A DNA stretch of 64,000 nt from Candidatus Iainarchaeum sp. (GCA_017610205.1 JAFCCL010000003.1:62001-126000); one strand, 5' to 3'. Shown: positions 2,834 through 51,715, numbered from the stretch's first letter. Notes: generated by a model from the sequence alone, not told the origin. Program-made: numbers and translations.

Positions 2834-3811
2834 TTAAGCCTCCATATTTTTTTCAAGAAATGCCTTGTACTGGTTCATTGTTTCTTCAATGCTTGGTGCT
2901 TTCCAGTGCTTTTCTCCTGTCCAGGTTTCACACACGCTTTTGTACATGTTTGAAGTAATTTCAATAAGCTCTTTTGGCAACAGGGGTGGAGTGGTAAATT
3001 CTCCGTGTCCCTTTCCTTCAGCTTTCTCCAATTCAATTGTTTCATACCAGGGAGTTGTTTTGTAATAGTCTCTTAAAATCTGCTTGCTTACATTGATTCC
3101 GTTGTACAAAAACCTGTTTTCGTCCAAGGTTCCGCATACATCTACCAGAATGAATTCTCTTTGTGGGTTTATTCCAAATTCAATTTTTCCATCAGCGTGC
3201 TCCAGTCCTATTTCTCTTGCTTTTTTTGTTAAAAAGTCGTTTATCTCCAAAGCCTTTCCCTTCAGGTCTTCAATTTCTGTCTGGTTTAAGCAGGAAATTT
3301 CCGCGGCTTCTTCCCATGTTAAATACCGGTCTGTTGGCTCAAGCTTTGTGCTGACATCCATTATTGGCAGGGTAAGTTTTTCTCCGGCTTCAGGCATTTT
3401 TTCAAGGCCAAGTTCCTCCAATGTTATTCTGCCTTTTGCAAGCCTTTTGAATACACTGCTTCCTTCCGGCAGAGAATTTCTGAAAATAATTTCCAGTGGC
3501 ACAAGGTAATTTCCCATGCCTGGTTTTAGTTCTCCTTTTTGTGGAAATAACACCCGTACTAGGTCAACTTCCATTTCGTTTCCTGAAATAAGCTTTCGAA
3601 AATGGCTTTTTATTCCTAGCTTTTCAAGTTCTTGAAAGTTATAAGTAGCCATTCTGCATAATGCTTCACCTTTGTTTGGAATTGTGTTAGGCATCTTTCC
3701 ATAATCAAACACAGAGTAATCGTCTGTAAACCTGAATACTCCTATGCCTTCCAAATCTGCTGTTGCCTGTTCGCTTACTGTTAAATCTTTTACACTTCCC
3801 ATAAAACCCAA
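2834..3811 (-). CDS. purC: SAICAR synthetase (phosphoribosylaminoimidazole-succinocarboxamide synthase)
   Basis: PurC joins CAIR with aspartate, using ATP, to make SAICAR, the substrate of the PurB encoded next to it. The 325-residue protein starts with a GSVKDL segment typical of the family's N-terminal ATP-binding sheet, and contains PLEIIFRNSLPEGSS (about 107-121), and DADGKIEFG-like and LVDVCGTLDENR segments in the C-terminal half. It is longer than the compact ~240-residue bacterial form and resembles the longer variant. It lies between purE and purB in a same-strand run with 3 to 12 nt gaps. Confidence 0.93.
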   Translation of the reverse strand: MGFMGSVKDLTVSEQATADLEGIGVFRFTDDYSVFDYGKMPNTIPNKGEALCRMATYNFQELEKLGIKSHFRKLISGNEMEVDLVRVLFPQKGELKPGMGNYLVPLEIIFRNSLPEGSSVFKRLAKGRITLEELGLEKMPEAGEKLTLPIMDVSTKLEPTDRYLTWEEAAEISCLNQTEIEDLKGKALEINDFLTKKAREIGLEHADGKIEFGINPQREFILVDVCGTLDENRFLYNGINVSKQILRDYYKTTPWYETIELEKAEGKGHGEFTTPPLLPKELIEITSNMYKSVCETWTGEKHWKAPSIEETMNQYKAFLEKNMEA

Positions 3812-25523: not shown

Positions 25524-27229
25524 GTAACAGTTTAAATTTTTCCCGTTAGCTGGGTGGTGAGGCTGTCGTGCAGTATTTGGTAATATTGTTGGTTGCGGTG
25601 TTTGCTGGTCATGTATAGGGATGCTTGCATGGCATAGCTTTGCATGTGTTTTGTGCTTCTGTTTTGTTGGCTGATTTTGCGTTTTAGGACTTCGTGTCTT
25701 AGGTCTCGTTCTGCTCTGTTGTTTGTGGGGTCAACGTATGGGTATTCGAGGAAGGTGAACCACTTGCCTTGTTGTTTAAGGATGTATTTTTTGAGGCGCA
25801 GGGTGTTTTTTCCAAACCATCTGTTTTGTCGCCTGTTTTTTTCTCCTAATAGGGTTAGGATTTCTGTGTCGTATTTTTGTCTGAGTTCTTTGGAGCAGCC
25901 GATTTCGCGTTTGTCTTTTTTTGCTTGGCTAAAGGGTTGCATGATTTTTTCTACAAGTGTTTCGTAGTCTCTTTTTTCCTTTTTTGTTTTGAAGTAGTGC
26001 TTGGGCTTTTTTGCAAGCCTGGATAGGTGTTCCCAGCACTTTTGCTGTTTTTTGCTGGTTTTATTGTATGCTGCAAGCGCGTCAGAGATTGTAACGCAGT
26101 CTTTGTTGGTTTTTAGGGAGCATGCTGTTTCCGAGTTTCGTTTTTCTGTTATTTGAAAGTAAACTGTTTGTGCTGTGCTTGCAACCCATAGCCAGTTTAG
26201 TTTTCCGTTTTTTTGCCACCCTGTTTCGTCACGATGCACGAACAAGGCCTTTTGTATTTCTTCCTCAAGATTTTTGTAATCTTCTTTTAGGTAGTCTTTG
26301 AGTCGTTGCAGGGTATTGCTTACTGTTGCAGGCGAGATGTCCAAGCTGAAGATGGTTGAGAACAGTTCGCTTATTTTCCTATCAGACATGTTAAAGCCTG
26401 TGAACAGCACTGATATGAGGATTGCTGTATTTAAGTCAAACTTGCTGCCAGGCAAAGCGTCAGGTAGCCTTGGAATAACCTCTTTCTTGCAGTCCAGGCA
26501 GTAGTATGCTCAGATCTTGTTGAGTACGCGTTCAAGTGTTGGGGACTTGATGTGGATTGTCGTGCGAAAATACTTTTTCTTCTTTCTTGTTATCCTTGTT
26601 CCTCCACAGCAAGGGCAACGCTTCATAGTAACGTCTCTCTCCCTATCATGGACTTTTGGCCTGGAGTTGCGCAGGTTCTGTTTAGGTTTTCCCTGTTCTG
26701 GTTTCAACGCTTCCTGCACTTTGTTCCTCAAACCAGGTTTCAAATGGGGTGGGATACTGCCTGAAGGGGTGTTCTCGTTCTGATATTTTCGCAGCTCTCC
26801 TAAAAGCCGCTTATTTTCCTTAAGTAAGAACATAAGCTGATCTTTAAACTCGAAAATAATCTTGTCCTTTTCAGCGATGATTTTTCTTTGTCCAGCAACT
26901 ATCTCTTTTAGTACAGTAACCTGTTCAGCAATCTTCTTTTCCAGTTCTACAGTGTTAGCTTCAAAGCGTTCTGTTATTTTGCGAAGTTTAGCCTTGTTCA
27001 TGATATCAACACAACTCTAACTCTCTTACCAATCCACTTCTTTGGCAAGTAAACCCTGCCACTATTACCGCTAGATTGAACGAGCTTCTCAATGACCTCA
27101 TAGCCCTCCAATCGAATCGAAATAGCCTTTTTCATGTAGCTACAATGTAGCTACATAGATTGGTTAAACATATCTATCAGCCAAAACAACACAAAATGCG
27201 TCAAAAAGAGGATATTTTTAAACTGTTAC
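25524..27229. mobile_element. IS66-like insertion sequence, transposase-only type
   Basis: The 1706-bp element is bounded by inverted repeats with a 13-bp perfect core: GTAACAGTTTAAA at 25524-25536 and its complement ending at 27229. IS66-family ends typically begin GTAA. It carries one interrupted transposase frame on the minus strand and no tnpA/tnpB accessory genes, as in the ISBst12-like subgroup. The flanking octamers (TATTAACT on the left, TATTTTTT on the right) share only part of their sequence, so a clean 8-bp target duplication is not evident and the insertion may be old or rearranged. Confidence 0.82.
25532..27001 (-). pseudogene. IS66-family transposase with an internal in-frame TGA
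   Basis: The N-terminal part (26510-27001) has a coiled coil (about 5-70) and a zinc motif CPCCGG. The C-terminal part (to 25532) has the catalytic DDE pattern: FVHRDETGWQKNGKLNWLW, ISDALAAYN and NNRAERDLR, plus CLDCKK. Both parts are in the same frame, separated by a single TGA at 26510-26512 (LNKI-stop-AYYCLDCKK); CGA would restore Arg. The transposase is therefore probably inactive, unless the stop is read through or the C-terminal part restarts at the TTG at 26455. The final stop codon lies inside the terminal repeat. Confidence 0.85.
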
Positions 27230-29483: not shown

Positions 29484-29795
29484 ATGGATAAGTTAGATAA
29501 AATGGATAATATTTGCATTAGACTGGATACAGGGCTTTCTAGGAAAATCGAAAGGGATATGAAAGAGTTTCATTATAGCACTAAAACTGATTTTGTTAGG
29601 GATGCTATTAGAACCAAACTTTCTTTGTTGGATGAACAGAGGGCAAAGAAAAAAGCTTGGGCTGCGTTATTTGCCGCAAGAGGTTCTTTGAAAGGAAAGT
29701 TTCCAGTGAGAACTAATGAAGAAGAGCAAGTGTTTGAAAAAAGGCTTAATAAGGAAATATTAGAACATTTTGAGAAAAAATTTAGCCTTAAGTAA
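29484..29795 (+). CDS. Ribbon-helix-helix antitoxin-like protein
   Basis: A protein of 103 residues. The N-terminus, ICIRLDTGLSRKIERDMKEF then YSTKTDFVRDAIRTKL (about 10-50), is a classic RHH DNA-binding domain. The C-terminal part is charged and helical, as in antitoxins that wrap a toxin. A TATA-like TTTTTATATTA lies about 26 nt upstream of ATG 29484. Its last 8 nt overlap the end of the PIN gene on the opposite strand, so the presumed partner is convergent. Confidence 0.72.
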   Translation: MDKLDKMDNICIRLDTGLSRKIERDMKEFHYSTKTDFVRDAIRTKLSLLDEQRAKKKAWAALFAARGSLKGKFPVRTNEEEQVFEKRLNKEILEHFEKKFSLK

Positions 29796-30216
29796 AATAA
29801 ATATCTTCTGGCTTTTGCACTTCAACAATTGAAGACAAAGAGTCAAAGAAATGGTTATCACGAGCAACTAATACTGCCTGATTGTCTCTTGCAATAATGG
29901 CATGAAGAACACCCTTAAACGGAAGCGCTTTGTTTCTTTTTCTCCATTCTTCTCTTGCTTCTGAAGTCTGTTCGGCACTAGCATCAAGCCAAGTAATCAT
30001 ACTTTCAAAAGAAGAAAAAATTTCCTTTGATTGTTCTTCAGAAAAACGGATTTTTAGCTCCAAAACAACAACATCCGAAACAAAAATCACAGCATTGTTT
30101 TCACTGCATTTTCTAAGGAATTGAAATGCAAACTCTCCAAGAGGCCTGGTGCCATCGCCCCTGTCCTCAAAGTAATCCCGCCAAATTGCAGTATCCAAGT
30201 AAAACTTTTTGACCAT
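29788..30216 (-). CDS. PIN-domain ribonuclease (VapC-like toxin)
   Basis: A PIN-domain protein of 142 residues: FYLDTAIWRDYFEDR carries the first catalytic Asp (about residue 8), VVVLELKIRF the conserved Glu, and LHAIIARDNQAVLVARDNHF the later acidic residues. PIN toxins cleave tRNA or rRNA; the target is unknown. It is convergent with an RHH gene rather than downstream of it in an operon, which is an unusual arrangement for a VapBC-type pair. Confidence 0.85.
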   Translation of the reverse strand: MVKKFYLDTAIWRDYFEDRGDGTRPLGEFAFQFLRKCSENNAVIFVSDVVVLELKIRFSEEQSKEIFSSFESMITWLDASAEQTSEAREEWRKRNKALPFKGVLHAIIARDNQAVLVARDNHFFDSLSSIVEVQKPEDIYFT

Positions 30217-30517: not shown

Positions 30518-30862
30518 ATGTATAGCAAAGTGAAATCAAAATTTATTAAGAATAAAATCAAAGAGCGAAACTGGAAGAGCAAGGATTACATTGACGATTT
30601 AATTTATTTAGAGGAATATATATCAGGGGAAATTTACGGACTTGGCGGGAATTGGAAAGCTGCTTCGATGAAAAGCGAATATAAAAAGGAATACGATGCC
30701 ATATTCAAAGAATTAAAGCCCAAGGACTTTAAACAATACATTAAACAGGAAAGGCGGGAAGCAGAAAGGGAACGGAAAGAAAACGAAAAATTTGAAAAGC
30801 GAGAGCAAAGAGAGCACAGAGAAGCGAAGAAAGACTGGATTAAAGCAGGTGGAAAAACCTAG
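30518..30862 (+). CDS. Charged coiled-coil hypothetical protein
   Basis: A protein of 114 residues, strongly charged, with a likely coiled coil over the last 50 residues (Glu/Lys/Arg rich). Family unknown. Shortly after the stop another frame reads GFVGNALTKEYEKLKELQEM, which looks like a natural continuation, so the gene may have lost its C-terminus by a one-base change around 30858-30864. A repeat (30943) follows directly. Confidence 0.5.
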   Translation: MYSKVKSKFIKNKIKERNWKSKDYIDDLIYLEEYISGEIYGLGGNWKAASMKSEYKKEYDAIFKELKPKDFKQYIKQERREAERERKENEKFEKREQREHREAKKDWIKAGGKT

Positions 30863-30942
30863 GCTTTGTCGGCAACGCCCTAACGAAAGAATATGAAAAG
30901 CTCAAAGAATTGCAGGAAATGGAACCTTATTCAACCTTTCCC

Positions 30943-31062
30943 CAAAACCCAACCCGTACCCGTTTGCTCTGACCTGCAAATGCCTCGTCAATGCCTTGTC
31001 AATCCTCTCGCAATTTTTTTTGTTTTTTTTATTTTTTTGTTTCTTTTTTTTATTTTTTTGTG
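30943..31062 (+). repeat. T-tail dispersed repeat, copy 1
   Basis: Starts CAAAACCCAACCCGTACCCG, then two GTCAATG-type units at 10-11 bp spacing (CGTCAATGCCTTGTCAAT), CTCTCGCAATTTTTTT and a long T-rich tail broken by single A, G or C. It lies between a plus-strand gene end and the stop of the minus-strand ATPase. Copies 2 and 3 are at 32547 and 34471. Confidence 0.8.
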
Positions 31063-31071
31063 GTTTGTTGT

Positions 31072-32247
31072 TTAGGGTTTGCTGAGTTTTTCTTTGAGTT
31101 TGAAGGCGTTTGTGAATGTGATTTTGCAGCCGTTGATTTTGGTTGTTTCGTTTGTTTCCTTATAGGTTATTACAAAGCCTTCTTTTGGTTTGTAGGTTTC
31201 AATAAAAGACCTTAGGCTTTTTCCCACCTTGTCTGGTTTTGCATTTAGCTTTACTTCTATTGGAATAGGCTTGCCGTTCTTTTCTACAACAAAGTCAACT
31301 TCTGCTTTTGCCTTTGTTCTCCAGTACTTTGGAGAAAAACCAGCCTTAACCAACTCTGACAAGACATAGTTTTCAAACAGCAGGCCGTCAGGTTCAGGGC
31401 TAAAATTGTCAACTATGCTGTTTCTTAAGCCAGTGTCCACAAAATAGAGTTTTGGCTGTTTTGTAATTTCCTTGGTTTTGTTTGTATGAAACGGAGACAC
31501 CCTTAGGATAAGATAGCTTTTTTCCATGGCGTCAAGATACCGTTTGACTGTTTGAAAAGAGACATTCATCTGTTTTGAAATGCTTTCGTAAGAAAGAGCT
31601 GTTCCGGTATTGACAGCCAGGTATTTGCTAAACTGTTCAAGGCTTCCAATATCATTAATGGAAAAAGTTCCGGCAATGTCTTTGAAAATCATTGTGCTAT
31701 AAAGGTCTTTGAGAATGATTTTTTTTGTTTCAACATCCTGAGTTAAAACCACTTTAGGATAGCCACCAAAAATCAAGTGTTCCCAAACAGCCCTTTTTAG
31801 GATAGCGGGCGTTAAGCTTTTTTGCTTTCTTGCAGCCAAAAATTCATTAAGTGAAAAGGGGTAAAGTTTGAGAATGGAAACCCTTCCAACAAGAAATGAC
31901 AAAATATCCTTGCTTAAAATCATTTCAGACGAAGCTGTTATCCAAGCCTTTTTTCCAGTATCAGCCAAATACTTTAATTTTGTTCCAGCCCCCTTGCAAT
32001 ACTGCACTTCATCCAAAACACTAACATCAAAACCCTCAATATACTGCTTTTCAAACTTTTTTATATCTTCCTCAAAAAGGCCCCTGGCATCGGGATCATC
32101 AAACAAGACATAAGAAGAATTCATACGCTTTGTTTGTTCCCTGAGAAAAGTGGTTTTGCCAGCCTGCCTGGCTCCAACCAAAGCAATGATATTGTAGGCA
32201 CTTGCAACCTTTCCAAACCTTTTCTCAATATCCCTTTCTACAAACAT
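31072..32247 (-). CDS. AAA ATPase with C-terminal DUF4143 (nuclease-like) domain
   Basis: A protein of about 391 residues. The N-terminal ATPase has the P-loop GARQAGKTTFLREQ (about residues 25-38), Walker B VSVLDEVQY and sensor-like ITASS. After a winged-helix segment (SYESISKQMNVSFQTVKRYL) the C-terminal DUF4143 part has LLFENYVLSEL, AEVDFVVEKNGKPIPIEVK, a PD-(D/E)XK-like core. The family is common and mobile in archaea; function is not established. ATG 32247 (MFVERD) is preferred over the upstream TTG at 32265. Confidence 0.88.
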   Translation of the reverse strand: MFVERDIEKRFGKVASAYNIIALVGARQAGKTTFLREQTKRMNSSYVLFDDPDARGLFEEDIKKFEKQYIEGFDVSVLDEVQYCKGAGTKLKYLADTGKKAWITASSEMILSKDILSFLVGRVSILKLYPFSLNEFLAARKQKSLTPAILKRAVWEHLIFGGYPKVVLTQDVETKKIILKDLYSTMIFKDIAGTFSINDIGSLEQFSKYLAVNTGTALSYESISKQMNVSFQTVKRYLDAMEKSYLILRVSPFHTNKTKEITKQPKLYFVDTGLRNSIVDNFSPEPDGLLFENYVLSELVKAGFSPKYWRTKAKAEVDFVVEKNGKPIPIEVKLNAKPDKVGKSLRSFIETYKPKEGFVITYKETNETTKINGCKITFTNAFKLKEKLSKP

Positions 32248-32270
32248 GAAAAAAATATTGCACAAAACAA

Positions 32271-32501
32271 TTTAAAAACCTTACTAAAATTAAACTTGAG
32301 TTAAGGAATAGTGCGACTAAAATTGAAGTGCTGTTTAATTTTGGTGAAAAAGGGGCAGACAAACGTTACAAAAACGATTATTTCCTCAAAGGCTTCTGCT
32401 TTGAAATAATCCCAAAATACCTCAAAAACTACATTAAAATTGTCAAAAACAACAAAGAACTCAAAGAAGAACTAAACGCGTTTAGAAAAAAACTTCAATA
32501 A
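32271..32501 (+). pseudogene. Gene fragment without a start codon
   Basis: The plus strand reads as protein-like over about 75 codons: TKIKLELRNSATKIEVLFNF, KRYKNDYFLKGFCFEIIPKY and a helical ending KELKEELNAFRKKLQ before the stop at 32499-32501. No ATG, GTG or TTG is suitably placed. I read it as the C-terminal remnant of a gene truncated by recombination next to the ATPase. Family unknown. Confidence 0.45.
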
Positions 32502-32546
32502 ATTTCACTCAGTAAATTTTATCAGCCAACCAGCCTTTAAAAAAAT

Positions 32547-32665
32547 CAAAACCACCCTCCCTGTACGGCCCTTCGGGCATATGTTAATGCTGTGTCAATG
32601 CAGGTCAATGCTCTCGCAATTTTTTTTATTTTTTTTTGTTTTTTTTTGTTTTTTTTTATTTTTTT
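32547..32665 (+). repeat. T-tail dispersed repeat, copy 2
   Basis: Shares with copy 3 the segment TTAATGCTG, then GTCAATGCAGGTCAATGC, CTCTCGCAATTTTTTTTATT and the interrupted T tail. It lies between the plus-strand gene remnant and the stop of the minus-strand nitroreductase. Confidence 0.82.
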
Positions 32666-32684
32666 AGGGGGAAATTGAGAGAGA

Positions 32685-33335
32685 TTAAATTGTTTTTAGT
32701 TCTCCGTTTGGTTCATTGATTTGTCTACATGTTTCAAGGTAAGCTAGGTCTGCTTCCTTTTTACTAAAATAATCATAATGGGTTCTTTCCCCAATATTTA
32801 GTTTTGCAGGAGAAAAAGGTTGCTTTGACCTATGGCCAAAGGAAATTACTGCAAGAGGAATATGTGATTTTGGTATGTTGGCTGCTTTAGTAATTGTTGC
32901 ATCATCAAAACTACTCATCCACAAGGAATCAATATCAAGAGCTGTTGCTGTTAAAAGCATGTTTTGAATTGCCGCAGCAGCATCCATGTAAATGAACATT
33001 TTTTCACCTTTTTCCTTTGTTGTAATATCATGACTTGAAATTTCTCCAACTTTTCCGGCAAGTTCAAGATTTCCAACTACCAGGATTGATAATGGAGCAG
33101 TTTTTGGCTGGTTTTGCCTGCAGGCATCAGCAATCCTTTCCTTTTGCTTTTCATCTTTTAAAATAATAAATTCAAGCGGTTGCAGGTTTCTTGCACTAGG
33201 AGCATGTTTTGCAGCTTCAAGAATAAGCCCAAGAGAATGCCTTGAAATAACGTCATTTTGCTGGAAAGACCTCACACTCCTTCTTTTCCTGATTAATTCA
33301 GAAAGCAATTTATAGGAAGCCATTGCTTTGCCCAT
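32685..33335 (-). CDS. Nitroreductase-family flavoprotein
   Basis: A FMN-dependent oxidoreductase of 216 residues. Family marks are the N-terminal IRKRRSVRSF (FMN phosphate binding), HAPSARNLQPLEFIIL, the helix DAAAAIQNMLLTATAL followed by IDSLWMSSF, and VISFGHRSKQP. Substrate is unknown; nitroaromatics, quinones or flavin reduction are possible. It is divergent from the PhoU-like gene and its 3' end abuts T-tail repeat copy 2. Confidence 0.88.
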   Translation of the reverse strand: MGKAMASYKLLSELIRKRRSVRSFQQNDVISRHSLGLILEAAKHAPSARNLQPLEFIILKDEKQKERIADACRQNQPKTAPLSILVVGNLELAGKVGEISSHDITTKEKGEKMFIYMDAAAAIQNMLLTATALDIDSLWMSSFDDATITKAANIPKSHIPLAVISFGHRSKQPFSPAKLNIGERTHYDYFSKKEADLAYLETCRQINEPNGELKTI

Positions 33336-33448
33336 ACTAAATAATAGTGAATATGCTCTATCTATAGTTTTCCTCTATTTAATATATGCATTGAAAAAAT
33401 TCCAAAATAAATATATTTATGAATAGTTGCATATTATTTTCATATGTA

Positions 33449-34414
33449 ATGAAGAGGCGTATTATAAAACAGGGAAAGGACAGTTTTACCCTTACTTTGC
33501 CAAAAAGCTGGATTAGGAGTCTTGGACTCAAAGGAGGGGACGAGATTGATTTACTTGAAGAAAAAGGCCTTCTTATTATTGGCGCAAAAAAGGCCATGCC
33601 AAGCTCAAAACTTATTGTTAACGCAGACAAGTTTGGCAATGCATTGCTTCACTATCTTTGCGCAGTATACAGGGGAGGAGTTGACGAAATAGAAATCACG
33701 TTTTCAGAATCTAACACAATTGAAACAGTGCAAAAGATTTTAAGCGATTATTTAATTGGTTTTGAAATAGTTTCCCAAGGCAAGGGTTTTTGTATAATCA
33801 AAAGCATTTCAATGCCTTTAGAAGCAGAATTTGAAACAATTCTAAACAGGTTTTTTCTGCAAACAGTTGCAATGGCAAAAAGCATCGCTGAAGCAATAAA
33901 AAACAAAGACCTTGACCACCTAAAAGACGTGAGAAAATACGAGATTCCAATAAACAGGTTTTCAATTTATTGCAGAAGAACACTAAACAAAAGAGGCATT
34001 GGAGCATACGAAAATGCAATTCCATTGTATGCATTTATTGACGAACTTGAAATAATTGCTGACAGCTACAAGCACTTGTGTGACTACTTTCTCATATTAG
34101 GTGGCAAAATTGAAGCCATTAACCCAGAAGTTCAAAAACTGCTTGGTCAATTGTTTGAATTACTTGAACAAAACCAAAACCTTTTCCACAAATTCAGCGA
34201 AGAAAAAGCAGTTTCTTTTTGGAAAAAAAAGCAAGAGGTTTTGAAAGAAACCCTTTCTCTGTTTAAGAAAAGCAGCGGAGAAAATACAAAAGTTCTTGGA
34301 TACATTATTAATATCATAGAACTACTTACCCATATATTCTACCTGAAGATGACTATAGAAGTTAAAATTAAGCTCTTCGAAAAAAATCAAAAAGAAACAA
34401 TAAATAGCACCTAA
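33449..34414 (+). CDS. PhoU-domain regulator with N-terminal AbrB/SpoVT-like domain
   Basis: A protein of about 321 residues typical of archaeal phosphate-uptake regulators. The first 45 residues (RRIIKQGKDSFTLTLPKSWI, GLKGGDEIDLLEEKGLLII) form an AbrB-like DNA-binding hairpin. The rest is helical with PhoU-type repeats (YAFIDELEIIADSYKHLCDY). It probably regulates transcription or phosphate transport, but no pst genes are nearby. ATG 33449 starts at the conserved MKRRIIKQG; a longer frame starts at 33419. Confidence 0.82.
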   Translation: MKRRIIKQGKDSFTLTLPKSWIRSLGLKGGDEIDLLEEKGLLIIGAKKAMPSSKLIVNADKFGNALLHYLCAVYRGGVDEIEITFSESNTIETVQKILSDYLIGFEIVSQGKGFCIIKSISMPLEAEFETILNRFFLQTVAMAKSIAEAIKNKDLDHLKDVRKYEIPINRFSIYCRRTLNKRGIGAYENAIPLYAFIDELEIIADSYKHLCDYFLILGGKIEAINPEVQKLLGQLFELLEQNQNLFHKFSEEKAVSFWKKKQEVLKETLSLFKKSSGENTKVLGYIINIIELLTHIFYLKMTIEVKIKLFEKNQKETINST

Positions 34415-34470
34415 CAAATTCGTTTTCTTGTAAAAAACACCTAAAAAGGTTTTGGAATTCACCTTTTCCT

Positions 34471-34586
34471 CAAAACCCAACCCGTACCCGGCCCTTTGGA
34501 CATGTGTTAATGCTGCGTCAATGCATGTCAATTCTCTCGCAATTTTTTTTATTTTTATTTTTTGTTTTTTTTTTTGTTTTTTTTTG
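34471..34586 (+). repeat. T-tail dispersed repeat, copy 3
   Basis: Starts CAAAACCCAACCCGTACCCG, identical in its first 20 bases to copy 1. It then has GTTAATGCTGCGTCAATGCA, TGTCAATTCTCTCGCAATTT and an interrupted T tail. It lies between the PhoU stop and the HEPN stop, again at a convergent junction. The rest of the 200 nt gap shows nothing else. Confidence 0.82.
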
Positions 34587-34614
34587 TCAGAAAAAAAGAG
34601 TGCAGTGGGTGAGA

Positions 34615-35073
34615 TTATTTTTTTCCCAGTTTCAGCAACTTTTTGATTCTTTCAACAAAATTTTCGACTTCATCGTAAATTTCTTCCAAATCTTCCTCTA
34701 ATTCTGGTTGCTCAAGCGAGTACTGAATAGTGTTTCTTCTTTGCCTTAGGGAATCCAGGACAATAGCTTGCCTCATTGTGATTATTTCCTTTTCACCATA
34801 CTTTTCTTCAATGTATTTGCTTACGCAGTAATGGCTTCTCTCCTTTACTCCGTCTTTGAATAGCAGGGCTCTTGCTGCGTGAAAGGATGCATTGTATAAT
34901 GCAATGAATGCCATGTCCTTGATTTTTGTTTCAATCAGTTCTTCGGCTTCCTTAAGGAAGTGTTCTGGCTGCTTAATGCTTTGTTTTGCATAATTCGTGT
35001 TTGGCTCAATCTTTTTGAGCATTCCTTCCTCAAAGCACTTTTCAACCTTGCTTTTAGCCAAGTTTTTCACCAT
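34615..35073 (-). CDS. HEPN-domain protein, partner of the adjacent nucleotidyltransferase
   Basis: A helical protein of 152 residues. HEPN features are the helix KDMAFIALYNASFHAARALL and the later RQRRNTIQYS, where the RX4-6H ribonuclease motif appears to have Tyr in place of His. HEPN proteins pair with minimal nucleotidyltransferases (MNT) as toxin and antitoxin; the MNT may AMPylate this protein. The start overlaps the MNT gene by 20 nt, so the two are coupled. The missing His could mean reduced nuclease activity. Confidence 0.8.
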   Translation of the reverse strand: MVKNLAKSKVEKCFEEGMLKKIEPNTNYAKQSIKQPEHFLKEAEELIETKIKDMAFIALYNASFHAARALLFKDGVKERSHYCVSKYIEEKYGEKEIITMRQAIVLDSLRQRRNTIQYSLEQPELEEDLEEIYDEVENFVERIKKLLKLGKK

Positions 35074-35611
35074 GCAGTATTTTTGACTTGTATTCCAATT
35101 CTCGGTAGAAAATTTTGTCCCTTGCTTTAAGTTTCTCTAATGACCTGTAAGTTAAAAACTTTAAGTTAGTTTCCTTCCCAAGCTCTTTGGATATTTTGGC
35201 ACTGATTTCAGCCGAGTCTCCAAACCCGATTTTTTTTCCAGACAAAATCCATATGTCAATGTCACTGTGCTTGTCAACGCTTCCTTCAACCACGCTTCCA
35301 AAGACCCCGATTGCCTTGCTGTTTTTCTTCAACTCGGAAAACGACCGGCTTTCCAAAATTTTTTTTATGAAGACAAGGGAAACAATCTCTTTTGTAAGCG
35401 GGTTTTTCCTGTTTAATTCAACAATCTTCATGTTCTTTTTTGGTTTTATATTAATCAAGTTGTCCCCCCCAAACAATTTTACAAACTGGGTTATTTTTGC
35501 AGGAGAACAGCCTATTTCCTTTGCCAGGTCTCTGACAGAAAAAGATTTGTTAACAAGTATTTCAAAAATTCGCAAATTGAATCCTGTCATTAGCCTTGAA
35601 AGTTCAACCAT
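35054..35611 (-). CDS. MNT-type nucleotidyltransferase with N-terminal winged helix
   Basis: A protein of 185 residues. The N-terminal 65 residues are a winged helix (VRDLAKEIGCSPAKITQFVK). The C-terminal half is a minimal nucleotidyltransferase: GVFGSVVEGSVDKHSDIDIW has the GS and DxD catalytic motifs. It is upstream of and overlaps the HEPN gene. The winged helix suggests autoregulation through the palindromes at its promoter. Confidence 0.85.
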   Translation of the reverse strand: MVELSRLMTGFNLRIFEILVNKSFSVRDLAKEIGCSPAKITQFVKLFGGDNLINIKPKKNMKIVELNRKNPLTKEIVSLVFIKKILESRSFSELKKNSKAIGVFGSVVEGSVDKHSDIDIWILSGKKIGFGDSAEISAKISKELGKETNLKFLTYRSLEKLKARDKIFYRELEYKSKILHGEKLG

Positions 35612-35652: not shown

Positions 35653-35669
35653 ACAAAAAATAAGAAAAC

Positions 35670-35752
35670 GCAGGGGACGAGATTCGAACTCGCGCGTCCA
35701 AAAGGACACGAGCTTAGCAGGCTCGCGCATTAAACCACTCTGCCACCCCTGC
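35670..35752 (-). tRNA. tRNA-Ser (GCT)
   Basis: On the minus strand the acceptor stem is GCAGGGG/CCCCTGC and the anticodon stem-loop is CGAGC-CTGCTAA-GCTCG (anticodon GCT). There is a class II long variable arm and T loop TTCGAAT. CCA is not encoded. Confidence 0.95.
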
Positions 35753-35831
35753 ATTATATTTTGCAATGGTGGCAGTCATTTTTCCCGAGGCTTTTGCCCG
35801 GAAGGGGAAAAAGCTTTCTGCCACCCCTGCA
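35739..35831. repeat. Duplicated tRNA-Ser end and large inverted repeat
   Basis: The 15-mer TCTGCCACCCCTGCA, the 5' end of tRNA-Ser seen on the plus strand (35739-35753), recurs at 35817-35831. Between them is an inverted repeat: GGTGGCAG (35768-35775) with CTGCCACC (35818-35825), and TTTTTCCC (35779-35786) with GGGGAAAAA (35804-35812). This looks like an integration scar or a small non-autonomous element at a tRNA gene. Confidence 0.65.
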
Positions 35832-39430: not shown

Positions 39431-39482
39431 ATTACTATCTAGGGAAAGAAAAGAATAAAAAGGTTACCATATAGGTAACCAC

Positions 39483-39554
39483 GCCCCCGGTAGGACTTGA
39501 ACCTACGACCTTCCGGTTAACAGCCGAGCGCTCTACCTACTGAGCTACAGGGGC
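39483..39554 (-). tRNA. tRNA-Asn (GTT)
   Basis: On the minus strand the acceptor stem is GCCCCTG/CGGGGGC (one T-G pair), the D arm GCTCAGTAGGTAGAGC, the anticodon loop CTGTTAA (anticodon GTT) and the T loop TTCAAGT. Intron not seen and CCA not encoded. Confidence 0.95.
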
Positions 39555-39632
39555 ATTTAATACTAAAATTGGGTAAGTTAAATTTATTAAAGGTATTTGA
39601 ATTTTTCTTGGAAACGCTTAGGCCTTTTTCTT

Positions 39633-39968
39633 TCAAACCCTTCTGCGTATTTGAATTGATTTGTGGCTTTGCATCCAATTGTTTAGCTTTATCTGTGTTT
39701 TCTCAATATATGTTTCCAATGCTTTTTTGTCAGAACCCTTTTTTGCCATGGCCTCTTTAAAAATTTCAATCATTGAAAGAAGTTTTTCCCCAGCGTTTAC
39801 GTGGAAAGTGTGATAAAAGCATTTTCCAAGCCTTTTTGACAGCTCGCCTTTTACTGCAGGATACTCTCTTTTAACCATTGCCTGAAAAGTTGTCTTTTCG
39901 CCTCTTGGTGGTTTGTAAGTGGAAAGAGGTTTTTTGTCAGAGATTCTTCTTTTTCTTTGTCTAGGCAT
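39633..39968 (-). CDS. Basic hypothetical protein
   Basis: A 111-residue protein, strongly basic, with an Arg/Lys-rich N-terminus (MPRQRKRRISDKK) and helical C-terminal two-thirds including ALETYIEKTQIKLNNWM. No family recognised. The composition suggests nucleic-acid binding. It stands between tRNA-Asn and the ftsZ upstream region and is probably transcribed on its own. Confidence 0.6.
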   Translation of the reverse strand: MPRQRKRRISDKKPLSTYKPPRGEKTTFQAMVKREYPAVKGELSKRLGKCFYHTFHVNAGEKLLSMIEIFKEAMAKKGSDKKALETYIEKTQIKLNNWMQSHKSIQIRRRV

Positions 39969-40355
39969 TTTTTATCACCTACTAATTACATGCTTTTGAT
40001 ATAAAAAACTTTTTGCAAGAAAGAATGAAACGCCTTGAAAGAAAGGTTTTGAAAACCATGTAAAAAACCATTATTTGTTAAAATAGCCCCATATAACGCT
40101 TTTTTGCTAATTTCTTTGTTTGTTAAGTGGTTTTTAGTTAATTTTCTTGTTTTTTTGCTTTAAAAGCAGAAATAAACCTGATAATGGCGTATACATAACA
40201 TATTTTGTGTTATCCTGCCTCTCTTTTCAAAACAAGCCTAATTTAGGCTTTTATACATAAAAGTAAACCTATATTAAGGACTTTAGACGTATTATAAGTG
40301 GCAAATTAAGTGCCTTAGTAAAAAAACAGAATCCTTTTGGGAGAGGTGATAAAAT
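39969..40355. promoter_or_regulatory. Long ftsZ upstream region
   Basis: No gene is seen in these 387 nt. AAGCCTAATTTAGGCTT (around 40231-40247) is a near-perfect palindrome and could be an operator or a transcript hairpin. ATTATAAGT (about 40291-40299) is a plausible BoxA. AGGTGAT (40344-40350) is a ribosome binding site 7 nt before the TTG start of ftsZ. The region is long for this compact genome, which suggests regulation of ftsZ. Confidence 0.5.
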
Positions 40356-41429
40356 TTGAAATCAATTGTGGAAAATGCCATGACAAAAACAGATAAAATG
40401 GATGATGACCGACTTGAAGAGTTTGGTACTCCAAAGATAATGGTAGTAGGAGCAGGCGGTGCAGGATGCAATGCTGTTAACAGGCTTGCTGGAATGGGAA
40501 TTTCAGGAGCACAGCTTGTTGCAGTAAACACTGATAAGCAGCACCTTGCTTTGGTTAACGATGAGTTAACAAAAATTCTTATTGGGAAGAGTGTTACAAG
40601 GGGACTTGGCGCAGGCGGCTATCCTGAGATTGGAGCAAAGGCTGCAGAGGTTTCGAGGTCTGCTTTGGAGGAAGTACTGTGCGATGTTGACATGCTTTTT
40701 ATTTCTGCCGGAATGGGTGGAGGAACAGGAACAGGCTCTGCCCCTATCGTTGCAGAAATTGCAAAAGAACAGGGGGCAATTGTTATTGCAATTGTAACAT
40801 ATCCTTTTGCTTTGGAAAAGGCAAGGCTGATTAAAGCAGAGGAAGGAATTGAAAATTTGAGGGGTGTTACAGACACTGTTGTAGTAATTGACAACAACAG
40901 GCTTGTTGAGCTTGTTCCAAATTTGCCTATTCAGGATGCATTCAAGGTTGCTGACGAAGTAATTGCAAGAACTGTTAGGGGAATTACTGAAACAATCACC
41001 CAGCCAAGCTTAATCAACCTTGATTATGCTGACGTAAGAAGTGTTATGAGCAGCAAGGGCCTTAGCGTAATAGCTGTTGGAGAAAGCAAGAGCGTTGACA
41101 AGGTAAACGAGGTTGTTGAAGACACTCTTAGGAATGCATTGCTTGATGTGGATATTGGTGGAGCAACAGGTGCCTTAATTCACATTACTGGAGGACCTGA
41201 ACTTACTTTGGGTGAAGCCAATGCTATTGGTGAATTGCTGACTGAAAGAATTGATCCAAAGGCACAGGTTATTTGGGGTTCAAGGGTTGATCCAACCTTT
41301 GAAAACAAAATAGAAGTAATAACAATCTTCACCGGAGTTCACTCGCCTTATATAAGGGGTCCTGCCCAGGAAGCGGCAATAGATAAAAGGGGCAGCAGAG
41401 GCGAACTTGACATAGCATTTGTAAAGTAA
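40356..41429 (+). CDS. ftsZ: Cell division protein FtsZ
   Basis: Tubulin-family GTPase that forms the division ring. The 357-residue protein has the nucleotide-binding VVGAGGAGCNAVNRL (about 30-44), the tubulin signature GGGTGTGSAP near 125 and the T7 catalytic loop NLDYADVRSVM near 223. Length is typical of archaeal FtsZ; the C-terminal tail is short. Start TTG 40356 is supported by AGGTGAT 7 nt upstream; a downstream ATG (40380) lacks such a site. It is monocistronic. Confidence 0.97.
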   Translation: MKSIVENAMTKTDKMDDDRLEEFGTPKIMVVGAGGAGCNAVNRLAGMGISGAQLVAVNTDKQHLALVNDELTKILIGKSVTRGLGAGGYPEIGAKAAEVSRSALEEVLCDVDMLFISAGMGGGTGTGSAPIVAEIAKEQGAIVIAIVTYPFALEKARLIKAEEGIENLRGVTDTVVVIDNNRLVELVPNLPIQDAFKVADEVIARTVRGITETITQPSLINLDYADVRSVMSSKGLSVIAVGESKSVDKVNEVVEDTLRNALLDVDIGGATGALIHITGGPELTLGEANAIGELLTERIDPKAQVIWGSRVDPTFENKIEVITIFTGVHSPYIRGPAQEAAIDKRGSRGELDIAFVK

Positions 41430-48055: not shown

Positions 48056-48667
48056 ACAGACAGCATTCTGTCAAACCAGGGTATTCTAAAGGATGCAGAG
48101 CAAGTGATTAAAGCAGGATGCAAACTTGTTCAATATCGCGAAAAGAATAAATCCTTTAAAGAAATGTTTGAAGAAGCAAAACAGCTTGCAGGCTTGTGCA
48201 AAAGCAACGGGGTTTTGTTTATTGTTAATGACCGGCTGGATATTGCTTTGGCAGTTGACGCAGACGGTGTTCATTTGGGTCAAAATGATTTTCCAATAGT
48301 TCTTGCAAGAAAGATTCTGGGAAAGGAAAAGATAATCGGCACAAGCAACCACTGTGTTGAAGAAGCCAGGCAGTCAGAGAAAGCAGGAGCGGATTATATC
48401 AGCGTTGGTCCTGTTTTTCACACCAGAACAAAAAATGATGCAGGCGCTCCGCTTGGATTGGGGCTTTTGAAGCAGGTTAGGGCAATTACAAAATTACCAC
48501 TTGTTGCCATTGGTGGCGTGAATGAAGAAAACATTGACGGGGTTTTGCAGGCTGGTGCTGATTCGGTTGCAGTAATTTCGGCAATAGTTTCAACAGAAAA
48601 TCCTGAAAAGTCTGCTAAAATAATTATTAAAAAAATCAAAAACTTAAAGAAAAATAAGGGGCTTTAA
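48032..48667 (+). CDS. thiE: Thiamine phosphate synthase
   Basis: ThiE joins hydroxymethylpyrimidine-PP and thiazole phosphate to thiamine phosphate. The 211-residue TIM barrel has LYFVTDS at the start, QYREKNKSFKEM, FIVNDRLDIALAVDADGVHL then GQND, GTSNH, YISVGPVFHTRTKNDAG and AIGGVNEENI. Length is normal. It follows the junction duplication and lies 0 nt upstream of thiC. Confidence 0.95.
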   Translation: MIKGLYFVTDSILSNQGILKDAEQVIKAGCKLVQYREKNKSFKEMFEEAKQLAGLCKSNGVLFIVNDRLDIALAVDADGVHLGQNDFPIVLARKILGKEKIIGTSNHCVEEARQSEKAGADYISVGPVFHTRTKNDAGAPLGLGLLKQVRAITKLPLVAIGGVNEENIDGVLQAGADSVAVISAIVSTENPEKSAKIIIKKIKNLKKNKGL

Positions 48668-51175: not shown

Positions 51176-51715
51176 TCAAGCCTTGCCTGGTTTTCCTCTA
51201 ATTCCTGACTTTTTTCCCTTTGCTGTATTGCCTTTCTTTGCAAAAATCAGATAAATAAAATGTATCCAGGTTACTATTGCAATAATTATTGCTGTGTAAA
51301 AAATCCAAGCAGTTTCAGGGTTTACCACAATCTGCATATTTGGCTCACTTGCAACCAGTGTTGGAGTTGTAGCAAGTATTGCCGGATAAGTTGGATAAGC
51401 CATGTTTCCAATAAAGCCAAGCATTGAAGTTGGAGAAAGTGCAGTAATCAAAAGTATAAGATTCAAAGCAAGCAGTATTGTGCTTATTGTTGATTTCTTC
51501 AAAAATATGTTTCCCAATCCTGGCAAAAAAACATTTGCAATAATTCCAACCAAAACCTTTTTGCTTTTAGTCCTATGTTCTGTTACTGGGGCATTTCCTT
51601 TTAGTACCCTAGGGTCGATCTTTTCGTCTTTAGTAATTGGATATACATCTGGTTTTTGGTCTTCTATTTCGTGTATATCAAATGTTCCAGGGTCAAATGT
51701 TCCAGACATGTCCAA
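51176..51715 (-). CDS. Membrane protein with acidic N-terminal tail
   Basis: A 179-residue protein. About 55 residues of polar N-terminal tail are followed by three or four hydrophobic helices (GIIANVFLPGLGNIF, STILLALNLILLITAL and later ones) and a basic C-terminus. The first helix has the PGLGN turn seen in small TM2-like or related membrane proteins. Function unknown. Start is at ATG 51715 or 51709. Confidence 0.6.
   Translation of the reverse strand: MDMSGTFDPGTFDIHEIEDQKPDVYPITKDEKIDPRVLKGNAPVTEHRTKSKKVLVGIIANVFLPGLGNIFLKKSTISTILLALNLILLITALSPTSMLGFIGNMAYPTYPAILATTPTLVASEPNMQIVVNPETAWIFYTAIIIAIVTWIHFIYLIFAKKGNTAKGKKSGIRGKPGKA

Follow-up and report, generated by a model that had tools for sequence, protein, structure and literature searches.

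T-tract repeats in accessory DNA of an archaeal genus: candidate terminators and edges of variable gene content

The window is a stretch of DNA of 64,000 nucleotides, bases 62001–126000 of contig C17 (window coordinate = contig coordinate minus 62000), from an archaeal host genome of 1.37 Mb in 24 contigs that is 92% complete. It contains three copies (c1, c2 and c3) of an element of ~115 bp (Table 1). A plus-strand ORF or gene fragment ends before each copy, and the stop of a minus-strand gene follows, 11, 20 and 28 nt beyond the T tracts of c1, c2 and c3 respectively. An IS66-family transposase gene lies 4 kb to the left of the repeats (25532–27001) and has a near copy at C16:33500–34420 (88% protein identity). 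A convergent pair of small genes with overlapping 3′ ends (29484–30216), also present at C17:12.0–12.7 kb and C4:8.2–8.9 kb (41–49% protein identity), looks like an accessory or toxin-antitoxin-type unit. On the other side, 15 bp at 35817–35831 are identical to the 5′ end of a minus-strand tRNA-Ser gene (35668–35753), ~65 bp beyond that gene.

Table 1. Coordinates of the elements and their neighbouring genes; positions are those of the window unless a contig is named.
Feature	Position	Strand	Remarks
114-aa ORF before c1	30518–30862	+	Without Pfam match; tail open in a different frame to ~30967, possibly through a frameshift
Element copy c1	30929–31061	+	Start earlier placed at 30943; left extension common with c3
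Parts of c1			C-rich body; units at 30988, 30999; CTCTCGCAA 31005–31013; T tract 31014–31061
AAA_14/DUF4143 ATPase gene	31072–32265	−	Matches PADLOC candidate family PDC-S01
3′ remnant of DEAD_2/Helicase_C_2 (XPD-like) helicase gene	32354–32502	+	Match to C14:50363–50486
Element copy c2	32547–32665	+	Strong similarity to c3 starts at 32566
Parts of c2			Units at 32584, 32595, 32605; CTCTCGCAA 32611–32619; T tract 32620–32665
Nitroreductase-family gene	32685–33335	−	After c2
Gene for protein with MazE/AbrB-like N-terminus	33419–34414	+	Before c3; weak PhoU similarity
Element copy c3	34457–34587	+	Start earlier placed at 34471
Parts of c3			Units at 34507, 34518, 34528; CTCTCGCAA 34534–34542; T tract 34543–34587
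HEPN-domain gene	34615–35073	−	Paired with MNT-type nucleotidyltransferase gene, 35054–35611
C14a	C14 ~48440–48482		Host genome; looser member
C14b	C14 ~51397–51432		Host genome; looser member
e1	G002:C11 ~25760–25797		Looser member
e2	G002:C11 ~26809–26850		Looser member
e3	G002:C11 19917–19939	−	Looser member
A and B	G005:C109		Looser members

A sequence-only reading had described three copies of this length with spaced units, a shared core and a long T tract, and both alignment and inspection of the sequence bear it out. Pairwise identity among the copies is 79–89%. For c1 and c3 it is 79% over 137 columns (E 4e-22; 30929–31061 against 34457–34587, reaching 14 bp further left), and for c2 and c3 it is 89% over 97 bp (E 2e-26; 32566–32657 against 34489–34585). 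CTCTCGCAA is identical in all three, and TYAATGC-type units ((T/C)AATGC-like) recur in each at a spacing of 10–11 bp. The T tracts of c1, c2 and c3 measure 48, 46 and 45 nt and are 88–91% T, consisting mostly of runs of 5–11 T split by single purines; a single C interrupts that of c1. An assembly artefact is unlikely, because the interruptions differ among the three copies, the flanks are unique within one contig and relatives occur in separate genomes. The A tract after each stop might suggest that the minus-strand gene is a retrocopy with a poly(A) tail; this was rejected since the sequence beyond the tract is common to the copies.

One plus-strand neighbour had been called a fragment, correctly: it is what remains of a second copy of a helicase gene. 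Positions 32354–32477 match the 3′ end of the copy on contig C14, which encodes 665 aa, with 85% identity over 124 bp. The intact relative (C14:48525–50522) is also found in 11 other genomes of the family. Another neighbour had seemed frameshifted, but no homologue of this ORF, the one before c1, was found that could bear this out; its proposed kinship with the gene preceding the helicase gene in the congener G001, based on a common ...YSTF end, gave no significant match. None of the five congener genomes contains the MazE/PhoU-like gene that precedes c3. Further accessory genes near copies encode Fic, and YoeB-like and PIN toxins around the G005 members.

The core was sought through the whole host genome. 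Full copies were found only at c1, c2 and c3, all within 3.7 kb and all at convergent junctions of accessory genes, so that a genome-wide dispersed repeat is rejected. Stretches with at least 26 T in 30 nt number five in 887 kb of the host genome, and three of these are c1–c3. Within 20 nt, the three copies reach 18–19 T, where the 95th percentile of the intergenic maximum is 15–16; together with the lack of any other full copy, this indicates that the copies are not a chance occurrence. T-tract matches on C11, C22, C3, C16 and C18 were rejected as extra copies, having only T richness in common with them. Two of these contigs carry very long intergenic T-rich stretches without the core motif (G000:C11:12219–12366 and C22:7656–7727). 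Within 100 nt after stops, T5 occurs in 200 and A5 in 225 of 410 cases (a first look with naive ORF calls). With no T excess at gene ends, long T tracts are not the usual terminator of this organism.

Looser members were collected by searching for T tracts preceded by CAAT and then reading their contexts. Their signature, AATGCTGTGTYAAT...CAA followed by T8RT8, is present on another contig of the host genome and in two of five congeners. A third stretch in G005 (C) shares with c1 and c3 only TTTCCC(A)AAAACCCAACCCGTACCCG. On the reverse strand of G005:C109, at ~2560–2635 and 3277–3356, lies a second, unrelated direct repeat of ~79 bp, which flanks a 213-aa gene of unknown family and is adjoined by a VapBC-like pair. 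One gene separates the G002 members e1 and e2, which show 97% identity over 36 bp. AATGCTGTGTCAAT, allowing up to three mismatches, stands just before a T-rich stretch 8 times, counting overlapping hits in c1 and c2; 40 shuffled motifs averaged 0.1 and never exceeded 2. As the test was made post hoc, after the motif had been seen, and some of its hits overlap, it demonstrates that AATGCTGTGTCAAT is associated with T tracts without proving this independently. A stricter pattern, GTYAAT with up to 14 nt and then T8RT7, occurs in three of 75 genomes of the order, all of the same genus (G000, G002 and G005); the other 69 genomes of the order, outside the genus, gave no family member. At the DNA level, viral contigs, phages and plasmids contained no homologue of the element. 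A single match in the GTDB contig collection, in a MAG labelled Sphingobacterium, is due to chance, being coding-like and without a T tract. Matches to the loose pattern TCAATGC..TCAAT are mostly background without a T tract, and only that in G005:C109 is relevant. To judge from these searches, the c1–c3 family is lineage-specific, without match in the collections searched.

The contexts of the ten tabulated members are mixed. The T tract is followed by the 3′ end of an opposing gene in six (c1, c2, c3, C14b, e1 and G005 B) and by the 5′ side of a same-strand gene in four (C14a, e2, e3 and G005 A). Location at convergent junctions, as the sequence-only reading had it, therefore holds for the three full copies and not for the family. 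A same-strand gene lies upstream of c1–c3 (c2 behind the remnant) and of two G005 members, while five of the ten (C14a, C14b and G002 e1, e2 and e3) have no confident same-strand gene directly upstream. Most members sit in accessory or variable DNA. One explanation is that a T-rich intergenic stretch, lying where constraint is low, was simply duplicated locally, and that the elements are by-products with no present function. The confinement of only three full copies to 3.7 kb, their 11–21% divergence, the members lacking an upstream gene and the absence of general T enrichment at gene ends would all suit this. However, the T tract and the adjoining motif are kept across three species, though the bodies of the members have diverged beyond recognition, and we regard such an origin as rather unlikely.

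The copies lie in a region whose gene content varies within the genus. To the right of tRNA-Asn (39481) and ftsZ (40356) the gene order of the window is kept in congeners, while none of the window genes from 21.5 to 40 kb is found on the congener contigs carrying ftsZ. The genes of G001 and G002 beyond ftsZ, including those on the far side of tRNA-Asn, are without close counterpart in the host genome. The interval 39481–40356 marks the edge of a hypervariable region, with different genes beyond it in each congener. Integration directed by the tRNA was rejected, as no duplicated end of tRNA-Asn was found.

Two edges of homology fall at elements; both come from one species pair, C14 of the host against G002:C11, the congeners being incomplete draft genomes, and they are placed to ~20 bp, since T-rich sequence can lengthen alignments by a few bases. 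Upstream of the helicase gene, homology starts inside the element (C14:48449 and G002:26822) and runs rightwards; further left the two contigs align poorly, and the genes that come next bear no relation to each other. Past the helicase gene, the stop of a kinase-like gene comes after 53 nt in G002, whereas C14 has there 888 bp that include C14b and a gene of 219 aa. Homology towards the kinase-like gene resumes at C14:51410, the start of the T tract.

These edges raise the possibility that the elements are sites of an undescribed archaeal gene-cassette system, in which a recombinase exchanges units of 0.6–3 kb holding one or two genes. Same-strand elements do stand 0.6–3 kb apart at four places (the window, C14, e1–e2 in G002:C11, and G005:C109), homology between C14 and G002:C11 ends at elements, and the nearly identical e1 and e2 bracket one gene. 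Against cassette exchange, no site-specific recombinase was seen among the genes scanned at 20–42 kb of the window; no tyrosine recombinase matched among window genes at 19.7–45 kb, and an IS66-type transposase is the sole recombinase-type gene among the neighbouring genes tested. Furthermore, the bodies of the members differ widely, no unit was found at two different places, gene orientation inside units is mixed, full copies number only three, and attC-type boxes or fold are lacking, GTTRRRY and RYYYAAC boxes being absent from c1–c3 on reading. We consider a system of this kind quite unlikely. A combined proposal, in which the repeats would serve both as insulators and as recombination edges of accessory gene units in an undescribed cassette arrangement, also seems unlikely. 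With no recombinase among the window genes scanned, and no exchange of units in more than one comparison, site-specific cassette recombination is possible but unsupported. Of the earlier suggestion of cassette boundaries, what survives is the placement of members in variable regions, the two homology edges and a genuine remnant, not a dedicated cassette system.

The T tract of each copy lies on the strand of the preceding plus-strand gene, and its transcript would resemble an archaeal U-tract terminator. In Methanococcus maripaludis, two U4 runs are required and sufficient for aCPSF1 to bind efficiently, and more runs give stronger binding and termination (PMC8716108); Term-seq in the same organism revealed a 23-nt uridine motif (PMC7515710). 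The tracts of c1–c3 contain 8–9 U4 units each. The host encodes aCPSF1/FttA as a 633-aa protein (C19:50541–52439) with full-length matches to 2ycb, 3af5 and 9bct (E 2e-219 for 2ycb, and 5e-185 for FttA of 9bct), as well as an XPG/FEN-type nuclease; these two proteins identify the genome as archaeal. A hairpin is not required at most archaeal terminators (PMC8716108), and folding against shuffles revealed none conserved across members. The three full copies gave no signal (z −1.6 to 0.45), and a stable terminator hairpin as a common feature was rejected, C14b alone folding better than its shuffles (36-nt z −5.3). Stems picked out by eye (TTGRC..GTCAA) did not hold across members.

The folding results also bear on another possibility, that a gene for a small RNA ends in each element and has the U tail as its terminator. 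The three members C14a, e1 and e2, which have no upstream protein gene, are preceded at 60–130 nt by AT-rich, TATA-like stretches seen by eye, and 15–75 nt before the T tract are conserved. On the other hand, there is no Rfam match at the gathering score, the window having only four tRNAs, c1–c3 fold no better than shuffles, and the orthologous pair C14a/e2 has no conserved upstream sequence; a small RNA gene is very unlikely. A further possibility is that proteins bind the TYAATGC units along one face of the helix and that the T/A tract forms stiff or bent DNA, the whole acting with a regulator or as a chromatin boundary. The regular spacing of the units in c1, c2 and c3 and the long A/T tract would accord with this, but members elsewhere have only one or two units and no binding protein is indicated, which makes it highly improbable.

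The most likely reading is that the elements are strong terminators or insulators, duplicated locally. In its full form, that a small family restricted to one archaeal genus consists of strong hairpin-free U-tract terminators (insulators), duplicated locally and left behind as edges, we give it an even chance. The plus-strand RNA would have a C-rich 3′ part bearing the units, followed by ~46 nt of U interrupted by purines. The U tract would slow RNA polymerase, and its U runs would be bound by aCPSF1/FttA, whose cleavage of the RNA would keep transcription out of the convergent gene and the next promoter. A T tract followed by either an opposing 3′ end or the 5′ side of a same-strand gene suits an insulator. 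The three copies would have arisen by local duplication within the hypervariable accessory region. Gain, loss or replacement of neighbouring genes, through homologous recombination between elements or in some other way, would then leave the element in place as an edge, and it would thereby mark the end of homology between species. Transcription through the element, termination there and recombination as the route of duplication are what we infer.

Two findings speak against a plain terminator: five members lack a confident same-strand gene just upstream, and gene ends show no T excess. Where a member follows no gene, the one that used to precede it may have been replaced and the element left over, as the helicase remnant before c2 suggests. 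The sequence-only reading had also proposed very strong terminators that spread with the genes; this fits the strand of the T tract, the presence of aCPSF1/FttA and the lack of a hairpin, and less clearly the half of the members without a confident upstream gene. The boundary and terminator readings both fit in part, and may be one thing.

A lineage-restricted repeat with an exceptional T tract, associated with the edges of variable DNA, is confirmed. Few archaea have had their transcript ends mapped, and a repeat limited to one genus that combines a 46-nt U tract with a conserved upstream motif and sits at changes in gene content would tie transcription insulation to the turnover of accessory genes. 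If it is only a strong terminator, it would still be a lineage-specific terminator family with no match in the collections searched.

MITE/REP-type families are short intergenic repeats of restricted lineage. The element is likewise short, intergenic and lineage-restricted; unlike them, it has no real terminal inverted repeat (no inverted repeat pair was found within a copy, and an unsystematic look noted no target-site duplication), and its few copies are clustered in 3.7 kb, not dispersed. In integrons, attC repeats in one orientation stand at the ends of short accessory gene units, with GTTRRRY-type core boxes, a foldable imperfect palindrome and an integron integrase next to the array. The elements share with attC the single orientation and the position at the ends of short accessory units, but differ in lacking such boxes and a foldable palindrome and in the mixed orientation of the genes, and no integron integrase was found nearby (window genes at 19.7–45 kb). 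Like archaeal U-tract terminators (PMC8716108, PMC7515710), they present U runs without a hairpin in a genome encoding aCPSF1, and in c1–c3 and the two G005 members these runs come after a same-strand gene or gene remnant. They differ from the M. maripaludis terminators in that half of the members are not directly behind a same-strand gene, in a tract about twice as long as the 23-nt motif (PMC7515710), and in the upstream motif with spaced units and the similarity from copy to copy.
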